DNA from: Halobacterium rubrum
Lineage (GTDB): Archaea > Halobacteriota > Halobacteria > Halobacteriales > Halobacteriaceae
Length of the DNA: 64,000 nucleotides
Reading direction: 5' to 3'
NCBI RefSeq assembly: GCF_021729015.1
Contig: NZ_JAJQQZ010000001.1
Span: 558,001 to 622,000, forward strand
Position 1 is the first letter of the stretch; the number at the start of each line of letters is the position of its first letter. Both the position numbers and the translations under genes were made by a program. The notes beneath the pieces are model-generated. The model was not told the origin of the DNA. It did no database searches and saw only the letters and a program-made list of their open reading frames with translations. This document shows, one piece after another, positions 16,141 to 46,662 of this stretch.

Positions 16141-16206
16141 CCCGGCGGCTCCCCCTCGCCGGCGGCGGTGCAGTACGCTTTTTGCGTTCGGGCACCCGGT
16201 ACGCCC

Positions 16207-17379
16207 ATGACTTCGGTTCGTCGCCTCGGAGCGGCCGCCACCGTCGCCCTGACGGGCGCGGCGGTCGTCGCCGTGATGGCCGTCCACGTCGCGACCGCGC
16301 AACCGCCGATGTCGGGCCTGCTGCTCGCGGGGTTCGGGAGCCTCGTCGGGCTGGCGCTCGTCGCTGCCGGTGTCGGACTCGTCTGGCTGGACGTCTCCCC
16401 CGAGCACGCGCTCCGCGTGGCAGGCTGGAACGTGCTGGGTGTCGTCGTCATCGGTGCGGCGCTCGCGCTGCTGTTCGCGTACCAGGGCGCCGTCGCGTCG
16501 GTACCTGCCGCACCCGTCTTCTCGGGGACGGTCGTGGTCGCCGTGAGCGCAGTCGCACACGTCCTCATCGGCATCAACGACGTGCGCCGCATCCGGGCGA
16601 CCGAGCTCGCCCGCCAGCGCCAGAAACTCGACGTGCTGTCCCGCGTGGTCCGCCACGACCTCCGGACGCTCGCCCAGCTCCTCTACAGCTACGCGAACCG
16701 CGTGGAGGCGGCCGCCGCCGGCGACGACGACCCGGAGGCGGTCGCAGCTGCCGTCCACGAGGCCGGTGCTGACCTCTCGAGCATCCACGAGCAGAGCAAG
16801 CTCGTGCAGGACCTCGTGGACGGCGAGGCAGCTACTCGCCGCGTCGACCTCGCGGCCCTCGCCGGGGACGTGGCAAGCGACGCCCGCGACGCACACCCGG
16901 ACGCCACGGTGACAGTCGGCGTGGCGGACGGCCTCGCCGTCGAGGCCGGTGACTACCTCCGGGACGCGCTCTCGGAACTGCTCGAGAACGCCGTGGAGCA
17001 CAGCTCCACGAGCCCTGACTCGCAGGCTCGTCAGGACGCTGTAGAGCACAGCTCCACGAGCCCTGACTCGCAAGCTCAGCAGGACGCCGCCGAGCACCAC
17101 GACGGAGAGGCTTCGGGGGTGACCGTCGAACTGTCGGCGGCCCGAGTCGCCGGCGGTGACAGGGTGGCGGTGTCGGTGAGCGACGACGGCTCCGGCATCC
17201 CGGCGGGCGAGCGCGCCGTCGTCACCGGCGAGACAGACGTCACGCAGCTCGACCACGCCAGCGGCCTCGGGCTCTGGGTCGTCCGGTGGGTCGCCGACGC
17301 CTACGGCGCCGACCTCTCGTTTTCCAGCAGCGAGGCCGGCGGCACCACGGTCACGCTCGAACTGCCGGCCGCGGCGTGA
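16207..17379 (+). CDS. Membrane sensor histidine kinase with N-box repeat insertion
   Basis: A 390-residue kinase with four N-terminal TM segments (about 8-30, 36-60, 70-95, 98-125) and no large outer sensor domain. The HisKA helix has VVRHDLRTL with phospho-acceptor His150. The HATPase domain has N-box ELLENAVEH (Asn261), G1 DDGSGIPAG and G2 GLGLWVVRW. Directly after Asn261 the protein carries two 16-residue units, each AVEHSSTSPDSQA plus three residues, followed by a third AAEH. This is an in-frame insertion of about 32 residues described separately. It is alone on its strand after secD. The cognate regulator is not evident. The ATG giving MTSVRRLG was chosen because the signal-like hydrophobic helix follows it. 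Confidence 0.9.
   Translation: MTSVRRLGAAATVALTGAAVVAVMAVHVATAQPPMSGLLLAGFGSLVGLALVAAGVGLVWLDVSPEHALRVAGWNVLGVVVIGAALALLFAYQGAVASVPAAPVFSGTVVVAVSAVAHVLIGINDVRRIRATELARQRQKLDVLSRVVRHDLRTLAQLLYSYANRVEAAAAGDDDPEAVAAAVHEAGADLSSIHEQSKLVQDLVDGEAATRRVDLAALAGDVASDARDAHPDATVTVGVADGLAVEAGDYLRDALSELLENAVEHSSTSPDSQARQDAVEHSSTSPDSQAQQDAAEHHDGEASGVTVELSAARVAGGDRVAVSVSDDGSGIPAGERAVVTGETDVTQLDHASGLGLWVVRWVADAYGADLSFSSSEAGGTTVTLELPAAA
16990..17085 (+). repeat. Two tandem 48-nt palindromic units inside a kinase N-box
   Basis: Unit 1 spans 16990-17037 and unit 2 spans 17038-17085. They differ at only four positions. Each encodes 16 residues, so the frame is kept. Unit 1 contains a perfect 8-bp hairpin (CGTGGAGC at 16992-16999, loop ACA, GCTCCACG at 17003-17010), followed by CCTGAC and GTCAGG arms. 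A third, partial AVEH-like start (GCCGCCGAGCAC) follows at 17086. Nearly the same block occurs in the kinase gene at 27238-28743. Confidence 0.9.
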
Positions 17380-27237: not shown

Positions 27238-28743
27238 TCACTCGAACTCGACGTCGGTGAACTCGAAGCGCGCACCGCCTTTCGGTCCGGTGGTGAGGTC
27301 GACGGTCCAGCCGTGGGCTTCGGCGATTCGTCTGACGATGGTGAGGCCGAAGCCGGTGCCGTCCGACGCCGACGTGTGACCGGGTTCGAACACCTGCTGG
27401 CGGTCGCCCTCGGGAATCCCGGAGCCGGTGTCTTCGACGTAGAGGCCGTGGTCGCCGACACGGCCGACGCGGACGGTCACGCCGGGGCCGCCGTGCTCTA
27501 CGGCGTTGTCGGACTGCCCTGCAGTCCGACTGGCTGTCGAACCGTGTTCGACAGCGTCCTGACGAGCCTGCGAGTCAGGGTTCGTGGAGCCATGCTCCAC
27601 GGCATTCCGGAAGAGGTTCTCGAAGACGTGCTGGAGCCGGCTGCGGTCGCCGTGGACGACGGCCTCGTCGGCGTCGTCCACGACCTCGATGCTGTCGTCG
27701 TCGCCCGTGGGGACGTGCTTCCAGCAGACGCCGAGCAGGTCCGCGAGCGCGACGGGTTCGGGGTCGGTGACGACCTGGCCCTGTCTGGCGAGTGTGAGGG
27801 TGTCGGAGACGATGTCGTCCATGCGGTCCAGCGCCGCCACAATGGGTGCGAGGTGGTCGCTGTCGCACTCCTCGCCGAGCAGTTCCGCCCGGCCCTGCGC
27901 GATGTTCAGCGGGTTCCGGATGTCGTGGGAGACCACGGACGCGAACTCGTCGAGCTGTTTGTTCCGGCTGCGGAGCTGGCGTTCCCGCTTGACGCGCTCG
28001 GTGACGTTCCGGGTGATGCCGACAATTTGGGAGACCTCGCCGTCCGCGAGGACGGGCGCGAGGTTCGTCTGCCAGAACCGCGCGCCGGTCTCGACGGGGA
28101 CTTCCTCCTGGTACGTGATGGATTCGCGGGCGTTCGCGCACCGGTGGTAGTTCGCCTGCAGTTTCGCGCCGAGGTCGTCGCCGAAGACCTCCATCGGGGT
28201 CTTCCCCTTGACTTCAGCAGTCGTGATGCCGGTCTGTTCCTCGTAGGTGACGTTCAGGCGCTCGAACCGGAACGTGTACCCCGAGCCGTCCGGCTCGACG
28301 TCGAGGAAGAAGATGCCGTCATCGACGGTCTCCAGCAGGGTCTCGTACTCCTCGGCGAGCTCCTGGTGGCGTCGCTCCCGGCGCTTCCGTTCGGAGATGT
28401 CGCGGCTGTTCACGAGGATGCCGTCGATGTCGGCCTCGTCGCCCGTTCGGTCCTGTAGCGTCGCCTCGATCCAGCACCAGGACCCGTCGGCGTGCCGGAA
28501 CCGCGTCTCGACTGTTTGCGTGCGGACGTCCTCGGACTGGAGTGCTTCGATGGCGTCGGCGACGGCAGCCCGGTCGTCGGGGTGCTGGTACTCGTAGCCG
28601 GTCTCACCGACGAGGTCCTCGGGGTCGTAGCCGAGTGTCCCCTGCACCGACGGACTCACGTAGGAGATGGTGCCACTGGAGTCGATGACCGTCGTGACGT
28701 CGGCTGATTCCTCGACGAGCGTCCGGTGCAGACCGCCGTCCAT
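27238..28743 (-). CDS. PAS-PAS histidine kinase with N-box repeat insertion
   Basis: A 501-residue soluble kinase. PAS domain 1 (about 1-120) opens with VEESADVTTVIDSSGTISYV and ends with a PAC-like RDISERKRRER. PAS domain 2 (about 130-255) has a PAC end RNVTERVKRER. HisKA has FASVVSHDIRNPLN with phospho-His near 272. The HATPase N-box has FRNAVEHGST (Asn380), with G1 VEDTGSGIPEG and G2 GTGFGLTIVRR. Between the first NAVEH and a third NAVEH sit 33 extra residues, described separately. It reads towards the tRNA and heads a cluster of signalling genes. A TATA box at about 28768-28775 places the start of a leaderless mRNA at the ATG. Confidence 0.92.
   Translation of the reverse strand: MDGGLHRTLVEESADVTTVIDSSGTISYVSPSVQGTLGYDPEDLVGETGYEYQHPDDRAAVADAIEALQSEDVRTQTVETRFRHADGSWCWIEATLQDRTGDEADIDGILVNSRDISERKRRERRHQELAEEYETLLETVDDGIFFLDVEPDGSGYTFRFERLNVTYEEQTGITTAEVKGKTPMEVFGDDLGAKLQANYHRCANARESITYQEEVPVETGARFWQTNLAPVLADGEVSQIVGITRNVTERVKRERQLRSRNKQLDEFASVVSHDIRNPLNIAQGRAELLGEECDSDHLAPIVAALDRMDDIVSDTLTLARQGQVVTDPEPVALADLLGVCWKHVPTGDDDSIEVVDDADEAVVHGDRSRLQHVFENLFRNAVEHGSTNPDSQARQDAVEHGSTASRTAGQSDNAVEHGGPGVTVRVGRVGDHGLYVEDTGSGIPEGDRQQVFEPGHTSASDGTGFGLTIVRRIAEAHGWTVDLTTGPKGGARFEFTDVEFE
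27493..27606 (-). repeat. Hairpin-built in-frame insert in kinase N-box
   Basis: Three NAVEH-coding copies are separated by hairpins: a perfect 8-bp stem (27583-27590 with 27594-27601, loop 3), CCTGAC/GTCAGG arms (27558-27563 with 27574-27579), a perfect 9-bp stem (27534-27542 with 27546-27554, loop 3) and a perfect 10-bp stem (27508-27517 with 27521-27530, loop 3). The segment 27552-27604 matches 16990-17042 in the other kinase at 50 of 53 positions by eye. Confidence 0.9.
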
Positions 28744-41058: not shown

Positions 41059-44000
41059 ATGATACAGAACGAAACTTACGACAAGGTCCGCGCGGTCTTC
41101 CTGACGGCGCTGATGATCGGCTCCGTCTTCGGTGCCGGCATCGCGTTCTCGGGAGGGGCTGCTGCGGCTACTACCTCAATCGAACTGAGCGACAACCTCG
41201 TTCAGGGCGGTGAGGATTTCGATGTTAATGGTACAGTCAATGCGAATGGTACCGTCCACGCATTCATTGACAAGAATGGAGACGGTGTGTATCATTCTGC
41301 GAACGATACACATCTCGGTAAACTGGACGTGGACGATTGGGAAAGCGACAACGAGTTCTCGATCACCTCTACTAGTACACCAACCGACAGTGGAACGTAC
41401 GACGTGTACGTGTTCCAGGACGAGGGTGGATCGGGGACTACCATCGACGATGGCGATGCAGGTGAGCGCTATGCGACCCTGCAGGTCGACGCCGACGAGC
41501 CAACCTTCGGTGACACGTCCGACCGCAAGGTAACGGACGAGAAGCCGACGGTGAGCCTCGGCATCTCCGACGCCAACACGTCCGTCGACCCGTCGAGCAT
41601 CGAGATCGACTTCTCGAACGGTGGCAACGTCATCTACGAGGTCAACGAGACCGGGAGCGACCACGATGGGATCGTCTACGACAACGGCGAACTCACCATC
41701 GACTTCAGCAACGACGCGCTGAAACCCCTGATGGACGGGACGGAGTACGACGTCAGCGTGACCGCCGCCGACGAGGTCGGTAACTCCAACACCACGAGCT
41801 TCAAGGTCGACGTCGACACGACTGCCCCGACCTTCACGCTCGTTCAGCCGACCGACGGCGGCCTCTACGAGGACCCCGAGCAGACCATCGAGGTCAGCAT
41901 CAAGGGTGGCGACATCAACGACAGCACCGCCGAGCTGACCATCAGTGGTCCCAACGGCGACTACAGCTACACGAACAACAGCTCGGACACTGGTGTCTAC
42001 GACGCCAGCTCGGACACGTTCACGGTGGAAGCCGGTGGGAATGGCGACATCCCCGAACTCCCGAACGGCACCATCACGGTTGACGTGAGCGCAGCCGACA
42101 ATCACGGCAACGCGAACTCTGCCTCGTACGCGTTCGAGGTGGACAACAAGCAGCCGTACGTCCAGGACGTCGCTGTCAACCAGTCCGAGAAGGGCGACGA
42201 CGAGCCGCCCGTCACGGAGGAGGACAGCACGATCTCCGTCGGCATCGAGTTCAACGAGGACGTCGATGCCAGTACGGTCGAAGCCGAGATCACGGCCGAC
42301 GGCACGACCGTGACGCTGGACTCGTTCAAGGACGACCAGGACGAGGCCGGTGAGGACACCGTCTATCAGTACTACGACGTTCTGCCCGCCTTAGACGATA
42401 TCGAGAACGACTCCGTGGAGGTCGTCGTCACCGCTGGCGAGGACATCGCTGGCAACGACGCCGACCTCACGAAAGGCGACAACTCCACGACGTTCGCCAT
42501 CGACACCATCGAGCCGGACGTCACGGTTGACCCCCTCGGTGGTCCGCTCGAGGGTCGCTGGGACATCGCTCAGGAAGTCTCCGTCGACAAGGCCGACGGT
42601 AACGACGTCCACATCGGCTGGATAGAGACTGGTGATACGTTCACGAAGAAGAACAAGAAGAGCGTGACGCTGTTCGAGCACCCCGGTTCCGTCGACACGC
42701 GGGACATCACCGAGGGTGACATCACCATCGTTGCGTTCGCTGAGGACGACAACGGGAACTTCGACAAAGGCTCTGCTGACGTTATCGTCGACAACTTCGA
42801 GCCGAAGGTCGAGTACAGTGGTCCGGAGGTCCTGACCGCGACCGACACCGGTGTCGACTACGACGTCGCCGACCTGGTCACGGTCTCCGACAACGGTACT
42901 AACGACGCCAGCGCCTACGGGTACTACGAACTCGGTCCGAACGAGGACCCGAGTAGTCTGAGCTGGAGCGACTTCACGCAGTCCTCGAAGTTCACGGCTG
43001 ACAGCGACCAGACGTACGTCTTCGCCGCCCAGGTCGAGGGCAAACTGCTCAAGACCAAGCCCGTCGACGCGAAGACGGTCGACATCGAACTCGAGGACGA
43101 CGACGAGGACGGCAAGCTCAACCTCACCGTCACCTCGCCCGTCGAACTCGACGGTCTGACCGTCACCATCGAGAGCGACGACGGCTACTACAAGCAGTAC
43201 AAAGAGACGTTCGCACTGTCCGGCCACATCGAGGAGACCGGCGAGCGGACGTACACGATGGTCTACGACGCGCCGCGCGACGGCGACTTCAAGGCCACCA
43301 TCGACGACGCTTCGCTGGTGAACGGTCTCGACCTCACCGACGCCGGGTCGGACACGGCCCGCGCCATGGGCGACGAGCCCAACATCGGTGACGCCGACGT
43401 GATCGGTCTCGGTGAGACCGGGACCGAGGTGCTCGTCCGGTTCACCGAGCCCGTGCAGGGCGTCGATAAAGGCGACTTCGACTTCCTCGGTGACGGGAAC
43501 GTGGTTGGCATCGACGGCGAAAATGACGACGACGGTAAAGTCGTCCTCACGTTCGACCGCGAGATCCAGACCGGCGACGAGGACGCCCGCCTCACTGTCG
43601 ACCCGGGCGTGTTCGGGGACTACGACGACCCCTCGACCCTCAACAACGAAGACAGCGAGTTCGTCGACTCCGTCGAACTCAAACTCCAGAAGGGACAGAA
43701 CTTCGTCTCGGTGCCGCTCGAGGCGGGTTCGGTCTCGTTCGACGAGCTGAAGAACAACGACGAGCTGGACCACGTCGAGGCCATCTGGACGTACGAGGAT
43801 GGCGAGTGGCTCAGCTACAGCCCCGGTGCGAAGGACAACTCGCTGACGGCCCTCGAGGGCGGTCAGGGGTACATCGTGAAGGCCGACGGTACGGCCTACA
43901 TGGACGTCCGCGGGTACACGGTGTACGACGGGGACGCCAGCGACAAGATGGAGCCGGACAGTCCGTCCATCCAGGACGTCGACGCTGGCTGGAACCTCCT

Positions 44001-46662
44001 CGGTCACTTCCAGGAGGGCACCCAGTCGGTCGGCCAGGCGCTCACGCCGCTCGACGGCCAGACTTACGACGCGATGTCTGGCGACACCGGCTTCAGTGTC
44101 TCGCAGTTCGAGATTGGTGAGGGCTACTGGGTCTTCACCGACGAGGACGGCCTCCACGCCCCCGTCGAGTACGGCGGCATGGAAAGCGAGAAGCCCGACG
44201 TCACGGCGTCGGGTGACAGTCTGTTCAGCGACACGCCGGCCAACGGCAAAGACGTGGACCTCGAGGTCGGCGTCACGTCCGAACAGCAGATCAGCAGAGT
44301 CATCGTCGACGCACCGAAGCTCGGTATCGACCACCAGGCGCTCAGCTACAAGCAGAGCACGAAGACGCTCGGTGACCTCTTCGAGGCCAACGGTGTCACC
44401 GTCGACTACGATGCGGGCTACGACGGCAAGAAGATCGATGTGATGGTCTACGCCGTTGACGCCCACGGGAACGTCGGCACGTACACCGAGACGGTCGACC
44501 CGGTCAACCGGTCCGGCATCGTGAGCATCACGGACGCCGACTTCTCGGACCTGACTCAGGGTGACACGGCGAACGTCACCGTCTCCACGGAGTACGACGC
44601 CGACGGGTTCCACGATGCGAAGCTCGTCGTCGAGAACAGCACCGGCGTCGAGATTGGCAGTGAAGCCGACCCCGCCGAGGACGGCTCACAGAACGTCAAC
44701 GTCTCGCTCACCGATCTCGACAACGGCGAAGAGATCACTGCGAAGCTGATTGACGCAGGTGAAGCCAGCGACTACGTCGTTCCGAACTCGACGGACTGGA
44801 GCGAACTCGCAGACGACACTTCGGACGCCGAGGGCCTCACGAACCTCGCGTACACCGAGAACAGCCCGTCCACGATTCGTGGAACTGGCGCTACCGCCAT
44901 CGACACTGCAGCGAGTTCGGTGAGTGATGATACGGTCTACGTCGAAAGCGGTGTGTACGACTCGGTCACCATGGACAACCAGGGCGTGACCGTCGTGGCT
45001 GCTCCCGGTGTGAGCCAGGAGCAGGCAACAATCACTTCTTCCGGTACTTCGCTGACTCTGAGCGCTCAGAACGTTGGAATTGATGGGTTCACCATCAATA
45101 CGACTGATTCGAGCGCGCAGATGATTGCCCTGAACGCTGATGGCTACACAATCGCCAACAGCGAGCTGAACGTCAGCAATGGTGCTGTCGCCGCGTACGG
45201 TAACGGTGCCAACAACGGCCAGCTGATGGCCAATACCTTCATCCTCGGTGATGGTACCAACAACGGAATCCGTCTCGATGGCACTACTGGTACAACCTTC
45301 GCGCACAACACCTTCGAGCAGGTGAAAATCTCTCAAGGTTCGAACACTCCGCAGGGGATTCTGTTGAGCAACACCGCCGACACGGTCGTTCACGACAACA
45401 CTTTCGAAGGTGTCGAAAGCGGCCAGGCGGTGCTCGTCACCAGTAAGCACGACGACGCAACGAACATCTCGATCACGGACAATGATGTGGCGGGATGGTC
45501 CAACGGTGTCTACCTCCTGGAGAACGGCGGTAACAACATCTCCGAAGTCGACATCGTAGGCAATGATATCAGCGCTAACAGCACTGATATCCAACTGTAC
45601 GACCTCTCTGGGTACGAAGGGTTCACCAGTATCAACAGTCAGGATAGCCCTGGCCTTGAGAGTGTTCTATTAGCTGACAATAATGTCGGCAGCGTTGATG
45701 TCTCCGGAGTCGACTACACGAAGCCGTCGCTCGACTCTGCAAGTAAAGTGGATGACACGACGATTGAAGTCACGCTGAGCGACTCCGGCTCGGGGCTCGC
45801 TCCGAGCACGATCTCAGCCAGTGACTTCAGTGTCAGCTCGGGGAGCATCTCCGGCATTGATAAGTCGAGCATCTCTTCGGGCGATTCGACCGGCACGGTC
45901 ACGATCAACCTCGCGAGTGCTGTCGACTCGTCCAGCGTTGACGTGTCGATCGCCGGATCCATCGAGGATACCGCGGGCAACACGCTGACGAGCGGTACCG
46001 TAACGGCGTCCAACATGGACGGCGTTGCACCGACGCTTGATTCCGCGAGCAAGGTTGACGACACGACTATTGACGTCACCATCAGTGATGGTGTCGACGT
46101 GAATGAGTCGACTATCGCCGCAAGCGACTTCAGCCTGAGCGCGGGCTCGGTCGCCAGCATCTCGACGAGCGAGAGCGGTGGTACGACGACCGTGACGCTG
46201 AACCTCGCGAATGCGGTTGACGCGTCGAGCGTTGACGTGTCGATCGCCTCCGGTGAGACGATTGCTGACACGTCCGGCAACCAGCTGGACGACACGGCGA
46301 GTGCGGTGACGGCGTCCAACATGGACGGCGTTGCACCGACGCTCGATAGCGCCTCGTCGACCACATCGGGTGGTACGACGAATGTTACTGTGACGCTCAG
46401 CGAAGCCGGTAGTGGGTTCAACGAGACGTCCATCGAACAGGCCGACTTCAATGTTACTGCTCAGGACGGAACGACCGTCACCATCAACAGCATTGACAAG
46501 AGCTCGGTCACCGATGGAGCCACCGGGTCGACCACCGTCACGCTGACTCTGGATGGTGACTACTCCACCAACACGCTGACTGCCGAGATTGTCAGTGGTT
46601 CTGGCGGAATCTCTGACCAGGCCGGCAACAGCGTGACGTCCGCCAGTACGTCAGTCAACTAG
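41059..46662 (+). CDS. Giant S-layer-like surface glycoprotein
   Basis: An 1867-residue secreted protein. The signal peptide (MIQNETYDKVRAVFLTALMI and then AGIAFSGGAAAA) matches the haloarchaeal surface-glycoprotein signal. Several Ig-like or cadherin-like domains follow (about 35-870), with VDTTAPTFTLVQP type joints. An S-layer core-type segment has GQNFVSVPLEAG (about 878) and GWNLLGHFQEG. A right-handed beta-helix region follows (about 1291-1552; repeated N-T-F and I-x-x-N-x-I patterns), and three C-terminal Ig-like repeats run to the end (1553-1867, beginning DSASKVDDTTIEVTLSD). There are many Asn-x-Ser/Thr sequons. The protein ends SASTSVN, with no PGF-CTERM, TM helix or basic tail, which is unusual for an S-layer glycoprotein. 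Confidence 0.85.
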   Translation: MIQNETYDKVRAVFLTALMIGSVFGAGIAFSGGAAAATTSIELSDNLVQGGEDFDVNGTVNANGTVHAFIDKNGDGVYHSANDTHLGKLDVDDWESDNEFSITSTSTPTDSGTYDVYVFQDEGGSGTTIDDGDAGERYATLQVDADEPTFGDTSDRKVTDEKPTVSLGISDANTSVDPSSIEIDFSNGGNVIYEVNETGSDHDGIVYDNGELTIDFSNDALKPLMDGTEYDVSVTAADEVGNSNTTSFKVDVDTTAPTFTLVQPTDGGLYEDPEQTIEVSIKGGDINDSTAELTISGPNGDYSYTNNSSDTGVYDASSDTFTVEAGGNGDIPELPNGTITVDVSAADNHGNANSASYAFEVDNKQPYVQDVAVNQSEKGDDEPPVTEEDSTISVGIEFNEDVDASTVEAEITADGTTVTLDSFKDDQDEAGEDTVYQYYDVLPALDDIENDSVEVVVTAGEDIAGNDADLTKGDNSTTFAIDTIEPDVTVDPLGGPLEGRWDIAQEVSVDKADGNDVHIGWIETGDTFTKKNKKSVTLFEHPGSVDTRDITEGDITIVAFAEDDNGNFDKGSADVIVDNFEPKVEYSGPEVLTATDTGVDYDVADLVTVSDNGTNDASAYGYYELGPNEDPSSLSWSDFTQSSKFTADSDQTYVFAAQVEGKLLKTKPVDAKTVDIELEDDDEDGKLNLTVTSPVELDGLTVTIESDDGYYKQYKETFALSGHIEETGERTYTMVYDAPRDGDFKATIDDASLVNGLDLTDAGSDTARAMGDEPNIGDADVIGLGETGTEVLVRFTEPVQGVDKGDFDFLGDGNVVGIDGENDDDGKVVLTFDREIQTGDEDARLTVDPGVFGDYDDPSTLNNEDSEFVDSVELKLQKGQNFVSVPLEAGSVSFDELKNNDELDHVEAIWTYEDGEWLSYSPGAKDNSLTALEGGQGYIVKADGTAYMDVRGYTVYDGDASDKMEPDSPSIQDVDAGWNLLGHFQEGTQSVGQALTPLDGQTYDAMSGDTGFSVSQFEIGEGYWVFTDEDGLHAPVEYGGMESEKPDVTASGDSLFSDTPANGKDVDLEVGVTSEQQISRVIVDAPKLGIDHQALSYKQSTKTLGDLFEANGVTVDYDAGYDGKKIDVMVYAVDAHGNVGTYTETVDPVNRSGIVSITDADFSDLTQGDTANVTVSTEYDADGFHDAKLVVENSTGVEIGSEADPAEDGSQNVNVSLTDLDNGEEITAKLIDAGEASDYVVPNSTDWSELADDTSDAEGLTNLAYTENSPSTIRGTGATAIDTAASSVSDDTVYVESGVYDSVTMDNQGVTVVAAPGVSQEQATITSSGTSLTLSAQNVGIDGFTINTTDSSAQMIALNADGYTIANSELNVSNGAVAAYGNGANNGQLMANTFILGDGTNNGIRLDGTTGTTFAHNTFEQVKISQGSNTPQGILLSNTADTVVHDNTFEGVESGQAVLVTSKHDDATNISITDNDVAGWSNGVYLLENGGNNISEVDIVGNDISANSTDIQLYDLSGYEGFTSINSQDSPGLESVLLADNNVGSVDVSGVDYTKPSLDSASKVDDTTIEVTLSDSGSGLAPSTISASDFSVSSGSISGIDKSSISSGDSTGTVTINLASAVDSSSVDVSIAGSIEDTAGNTLTSGTVTASNMDGVAPTLDSASKVDDTTIDVTISDGVDVNESTIAASDFSLSAGSVASISTSESGGTTTVTLNLANAVDASSVDVSIASGETIADTSGNQLDDTASAVTASNMDGVAPTLDSASSTTSGGTTNVTVTLSEAGSGFNETSIEQADFNVTAQDGTTVTINSIDKSSVTDGATGSTTVTLTLDGDYSTNTLTAEIVSGSGGISDQAGNSVTSASTSVN
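46003..46343 (+). repeat. Direct repeat within the C-terminal Ig-like domains
   Basis: A 35-nt sequence beginning ACGGCGTCCAAC is present identically at 46003-46037 and 46309-46343, 306 nt apart, i.e. exactly 102 codons. It marks the domain joint NMDGVAPTLDS. Recombination between the copies would add or remove one Ig-like domain in frame. Confidence 0.85.

Follow-up and report, generated by a model that had tools for sequence, protein, structure and literature searches.

The DNA analysed here, referred to as the window, is a stretch of 64,000 nucleotides from Halobacterium rubrum carrying two histidine kinase genes with a nearly identical block of sequence (Table 1). Comparison of the minus strand at 27603-27551 with the plus strand at 16990-17042 gave 50 identical bases out of 53, the same count as in the initial annotation, whose interval (27552-27604) is out of register by one base. 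A 27-base pattern taken from the block matches the window three times against 0.00 expected, which excludes chance. Amino-acid identity between the two proteins is 35% across 269 aligned residues, the insert counted in. Outside the block their codon-aligned DNA is 54% identical, with third positions at the background level of 53%; similarity is therefore limited to the block. The initial annotation had described the kinases as otherwise different in sequence, which these values bear out, and the silent-site comparison that it proposed gives the same picture. Equally high identity outside the block, which it took as the sign of recent duplication, was looked for and is absent. Both genes encode histidine kinases, as expected if they were recent duplicates with the block merely their best-conserved part, but the divergence outside the block rules this origin out, kinase 1 orthologs lacking the block also speak against it, and its probability is negligible. 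Elsewhere in the window, an ORF of 1867 codons (41059-46662, plus strand) has no Pfam match at 1e-5.

Table 1. Features of the two carrier kinases and their inserts, in window coordinates
Feature	Position	Strand	Evidence
Histidine kinase 2 (PAS-PAS-HisKA-HATPase_c), host gene	27238..28743	-	Pfam PAS_4, HisKA, HATPase_c; ORF translation
Asn-Ala codons of the N-box (AATGCCG) on the target side, flanking the insertion on the left	27600..27606	-	Sequence
Unit 1 of kinase 2 insert, 48 bp: V hairpin + A hairpin + ACGCTG	27552..27599	-	
Hairpin V1: CGTGGAGC-ATG-GCTCCACG	27583..27601	-	RNAfold; covariation over 177 distinct units
Hairpin A: CCTGAC-TCGCAGGCTC-GTCAGG	27558..27579	-	RNAfold; covariation
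Unit 2 of kinase 2 insert, 51 bp: V hairpin + B hairpin + ACGCCG	27501..27551	-	Sequence
Hairpin V2: GCTGTCGAAC-ACG-GTTCGACAGC, 10-bp stem	27533..27555	-	RNAfold
Hairpin B: GTCGGACTGC-AGG-GCAGTCCGAC, 10-bp stem	27508..27530	-	RNAfold; B units with other perfect stems
Histidine kinase 1, second carrier	16168..17379	+	Pfam HATPase_c
Kinase 1 first 48-bp unit	16994..17041	+	Unit pair absent from syntenic G126 ortholog
Kinase 1 second 48-bp unit	17042..17089	+	Unit pair absent from syntenic G126 ortholog

The block is built from a repeated unit. Its core form is 48 bp long (16 codons) and consists of hairpin V, which encodes VEHGST and has a stem of 6-8 bp with a 3-nt loop, followed by hairpin A, which encodes SPDSQARQ and has a 6-bp stem with a 10-nt loop, and a terminal ACGCCG. 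In 45- and 51-bp versions hairpin A is replaced by a B hairpin with a perfect stem of 7-10 bp, variable in sequence, and a 3-nt loop. Perfect hairpins with a 3-nt loop are 14-fold denser than in the flanks. By inspection, the ends of the 48-mer (CGGAGC...ACGCCG or TGGAGC...ACGCCG) reveal internal hairpins only, with no obvious terminal inverted repeats spanning it, and four of its six frames are open. The encoded peptide is hydrophilic, each unit contributing 15-17 residues, and in arrays DAVEH stands at every unit boundary. In kinase 2, the copy closest to unit 1 among the sampled loci matches it at 47/48 bases and belongs to a further kinase of this genome, and the B type of unit 2 recurs in another kinase of the genome and across Halobacteria. 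RNAfold folds the kinase 2 insert region into four tandem hairpins (z = -5.55); the two further hairpins with 3-nt loops noticed at first are present, with stems of 10 and 10 bp rather than 9 and 10. In an AlphaFold2 model of kinase 2 (mean pLDDT 84.5), the N-box helix still contains the first NAVEH, and the insert lies between this helix and the next strand as a low-confidence stretch (pLDDT about 42-56), which fits a predicted tolerated loop.

Several features of the stems indicate that maintenance acts on the nucleic acid. Over 177 distinct units, 94% of cells are paired in V and 92% in A, compared with shuffled means of 83% and 79% (maxima 85% and 82%), and sliding the partners out of place lowers pairing to 52% or less; because the units are related by descent, the shuffles overstate significance, and stronger evidence lies in how many different paired states occur. 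V pair 5-11 is GC in 87 units and AT in 74. Both this pair and pair 2-14 occupy silent third positions in the histidine kinase frame, and they switch jointly among GC, CG, AT and TA. The inner pairs of hairpin A vary together with the amino acids, and the stem residues that change in step with complementarity are D, A, R, P, G and V. The usual codons of the unit are rare in the window (CCT 2%, GCT 5% and CGT 7% of their families). Where the residue is the same, codons are conserved better in the insert than in the flanks of the rhodanese/metallo-beta-lactamase (MBL; 0.93 vs 0.72) and glutamyl-tRNA synthetase (GltX; 0.96 vs 0.74) hosts described below, and less clearly so in the CbiE-like host. 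It is the strong covariation of the stems, synonymous in V, together with the retention of rare codons, from which this conclusion is drawn. Neighbouring V hairpins, moreover, alternate their synonymous codons more than in any of 2000 shuffles. The two units of kinase 1 (16994-17089) break this rule with almost identical V hairpins, and their insert folds less cleanly, into a mixed structure (z = -2.83), which perhaps reflects a young tandem copy.

These patterns bear on two readings in which the unit is kept for what it does in the gene product. In the first, it would be a peptide module with a function of its own, serving as a regulatory or spacer loop, under protein-level selection and acquired repeatedly by kinases and enzymes. 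Strict use of a single frame and orientation although most frames are open, conservation of DAVEH at every array boundary and long persistence in several lineages are all as such a module would have it. Nevertheless, stem residues track complementarity, silent sites covary, rare codons are kept and adjacent V hairpins alternate synonymous codons, while the hosts have no common function and near-identical orthologs are patchily filled, so that we regard a peptide role as distinctly improbable. In the second, the hairpins would act in mRNA, for example by slowing ribosomes or marking processing sites, and would be kept by selection on RNA folding. The orientation fixed relative to transcription, the strong folding of the kinase 2 insert and the alternation of adjacent V hairpins, which avoids cross-pairing, agree with this proposal, but the same gene is patchily filled between close relatives and the tandem units of kinase 1 give a mixed fold; a role in mRNA seems unlikely to us.

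The initial annotation had suggested a survey of the histidine kinases of the genome and its relatives. A whole-genome search with the block identified five carrier kinases, all with the block at the N-box, the other listed matches being bare N-boxes only; in genus mates, the insert is absent from 7/7 orthologs of kinase 1, and the syntenic G126 gene differs from kinase 1 by exactly 96 bp, or two units. Over 66 bp from the N-box codons, three kinases (kinase 2 and those at C1:532760 and C1:355365) share 94-98% identity, forming an island of ~80 bp once the upstream ENLFR codons are included. Their upstream windows, from 31 bp out, are only 43-53% identical, and downstream of the island identity is 17-27%, with one pair at 53%. 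The island and the insert-free orthologs make the original preference for movement or gene conversion over descent largely right. Gene conversion plausibly accounts for the tract shared among N-box kinases; copies outside kinases are not explained in this way.

Such copies were found when a degenerate pattern of hairpin A was scanned, by exact match, over 84,980 species. The scan returned 45 stretches, 42 of them in Halobacteria and the other three chance matches, and the haloarchaeal copies lie inside ORFs in one orientation and in the SPDSQARQ frame. Among class-wide pattern matches, 125 of 128 copies are in frame and in the same orientation, the remaining three being chance matches with three mismatches; no intergenic, antisense or other-frame copies occur among the pattern matches examined. 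The main site across Halobacteria is the histidine kinase N-box, right after the ATP-binding motif. The unit is not confined to kinases and the N-box, as the other hosts demonstrate. These are the MBL protein, with two main insertion sites, both in G058, and a third in a relative (L222); a tetrapyrrole methylase (TP_methylase), CbiE-like (precorrin methylase) by residue similarity; GltX; and two proteins without a Pfam match. Non-kinase copies sit at Asp/Asn/Tyr-Ala codons. In one protein without a Pfam match (L171 of G264, 332 aa), the low-complexity central part contains several kinds of unit, as though linkers accumulated them, and a further unit type, encoding roughly GRRSASSEPSVADAPED, is common to four kinases (L204, L209, L211 and L117) and a CbiE-like gene (L229). 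Likeness is 0.744 for copies from different gene families of a single genome, compared with 0.799 for copies from different species. Ongoing jumps between the gene families of a genome are thus unsupported, and since cross-family copies within a genome are not especially alike, such jumps are rare or old.

Filled and empty versions of the same gene delimit the unit precisely, orthologs differing by exactly 48 or 96 bp. The MBL genes L087 and L327 are 95.5% identical and differ by exactly 48 bp after ACGCCG, the empty DNA reading ACCT-ACGCCG-ACGACC and the filled DNA ACCT-ACGCCG-[48 bp ending ACGCCG]-ACGACC; three more pairs differ in this way at about 93% identity. Empty GltX homologs read NAEEYDE, with AACGCCGAGGAG in some, and filled GltX has 16 additional codons after AACGCCG. 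The CbiE-like gene likewise differs from its empty homologs by 16 codons. ACGCCG thus stands on both sides of the insert and once in clean empty sites (MBL site 2 and GltX), whereas some empty sites match it in part; it may be a target-site duplication or microhomology, and the two leave the same trace here. Duplication of the whole NAVEH codon block as a target site was rejected, because the repeats differ systematically in synonymous codons, and the passage from clean empty sites to a 48-bp unit with only ACGCCG repeated contradicts it as well. Nor is the left arm of V always derived from the host: the empty sites of GltX and MBL site 2 lack it, although MBL site 1 in G040 has it. A preferred target made by the NAVEHGST codons, themselves a hairpin, had been proposed at the outset. 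The N-box is indeed favoured, but the proposal is too narrow for unrelated proteins filled at Asp/Asn/Tyr-Ala codons, and hairpin V, which does exist, is often part of the element, as the armless empty sites attest. The feature common to intact empty sites is ACGCCG.

Presence of the unit is patchy among near-identical orthologs. In a FastTree phylogeny of 48 MBL members, filled genes stand among empty ones in several separated lineages at sites 1 and 2, and the sister pairs G153/G101 and G050/G082 differ in state. An empty gene (G114) within a filled clade suggests loss, and the Halomicrobium-like left flank of G034 indicates that some transfers probably moved whole tracts. At the GltX site, the insert is shortened or degraded in two loci (L332 and L335), whose remnants, NAAEPGSDSQAQQDAE and possibly GVSEPDDEAADADE, suggest in-frame decay alongside precise loss. 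Most of the change under way now seems to consist of gain and loss at sites that were occupied long ago, in part through transfer, together with conversion among kinases.

A discrete 48-bp unit therefore occupies several unrelated in-frame sites, with ACGCCG on both sides and with hairpins kept as nucleic acid. We think that the block is probably one instance of an in-frame mobile palindromic element of Halobacteria that is short and non-autonomous. Such an element would be placed after an ACGCCG coding Asp/Asn/Tyr-Ala, with the host frame undisturbed and an ACGCCG at either side. Its copies would spread as DNA, either by hairpin-based transposition with an enzyme supplied in trans or by template switching at the short stretch of homology that ACGCCG provides; the data favour neither route. 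Gene conversion through the N-box may then homogenise the kinase copies, and recombination between the direct repeats could remove copies precisely. Stem perfection would be explained most simply if template switching corrected one arm against the other, possibly with some help from selection, and a hydrophilic peptide in a surface loop would leave the element tolerated rather than used. Some observations sit uneasily with a mobile element. No recent cross-family jump was caught (0.744 vs 0.799), the 48-mer has no obvious terminal inverted repeats, some empty sites hold only part of ACGCCG, and the total absence of intergenic, antisense and other-frame copies is odd for a free mover. Of the ACGCCG sites in the window, about 41% have the right register, so that at least eight independent sites would all be in register with a probability near 0.001 without selection or targeting; the target explains the restriction of register and strand only partly.

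An account without autonomous movement overlaps with the template-switching route. Here, template switching and ectopic gene conversion through ACGCCG microhomology or conserved N-box DNA would carry the unit as a hairpin-prone passenger. The presence of ACGCCG at both ends, a kinase island that takes in N-box DNA, and published evidence that template switching can create hairpins and maintain them with compensatory changes (PMC8794818) all accord with it. However, a 6-bp homology is very common, yet the same unit recurs in one orientation and register in several gene families, a recurrence that needs target choice or strong later selection. We hold this account to be a serious contender, though one that we would not expect to prove correct. 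Returning to the mobile element, a more specialised version of it would be mobile DNA adapted to life inside ORFs alone, which recognises Asp/Asn-Ala DNA in one register, adds exactly 16 codons, encodes a tolerated loop, rebuilds its hairpins by template switching and leaves no non-coding copies. This version is speculative and somewhat unlikely; if it were true, movement, folding and translation would all be written into one set of 48 bases.

The closest known counterparts are the Rickettsia palindromic elements (RPEs), which are about 150 bp long, about half of the first 44 lying in ORFs (Ogata 2000, 2002, summarised in PMC10969869). Like the haloarchaeal unit, RPEs are short palindromic repeats found in frame in unrelated coding genes, with a conserved peptide and no transposase of their own; the corresponding traits seen here are in-frame copies in histidine kinase, MBL, CbiE-like, GltX and other genes, hairpins, and empty orthologous sites. 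Unlike RPEs, the unit is archaeal, 48 bp long and composed of two hairpins, has ACGCCG on both sides, favours the kinase N-box and lies only in ORFs, no copies outside genes, as RPEs have, being present among the pattern matches examined. We set it apart from the RPE families proper by its size and its restriction to Halobacteria in the scan of 84,980 species rather than by sequence comparison. PARCELs are also coding repeats with dyad symmetry that form tandem arrays in codon multiples and spread by transfer and shuffling. They are, however, tandem amphipathic repeats of 25 residues in ORFs lacking assigned functions, whereas the haloarchaeal units encode 15-17 hydrophilic residues and interrupt conserved enzymes; the unit is not a PARCEL. 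REP/BIME sequences and MITEs, which among haloarchaea include the PATEs of Haloquadratum walsbyi, are small, hairpin-forming, non-autonomous repeats. REPs are extragenic, and MITEs and PATEs are longer, have inverted repeats at their termini and, in most cases, either interrupt genes or flank them. The haloarchaeal unit resembles REPs in being small and hairpin-forming and differs from them in its coding location, and it lacks the terminal inverted repeats spanning the element that characterise MITEs. Quasipalindrome template-switch mutations make the arms of hairpins perfect and so yield paired compensatory changes, in coding DNA too (PMC8794818, PMC8604942). They account for the upkeep of the stems and not for the arrival of a 48-bp unit in new genes.

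We found no description of the haloarchaeal in-frame palindromes or of their peptide motif in the open-licence literature, which is weak evidence of novelty. In-frame coding palindromes have so far been discussed mostly as a Rickettsia oddity. The haloarchaeal copies advise caution, in that a repeat at the active-site motif of a kinase can reflect an event in the DNA instead of an innovation in signalling. Coding palindromes spread through an entire class of archaea, in genes whose filled and empty forms are nearly identical, make insertion, loss and hairpin repair testable in easily grown organisms, and whether perfect hairpins are kept by template switching or by selection has a natural test in the paired synonymous changes.
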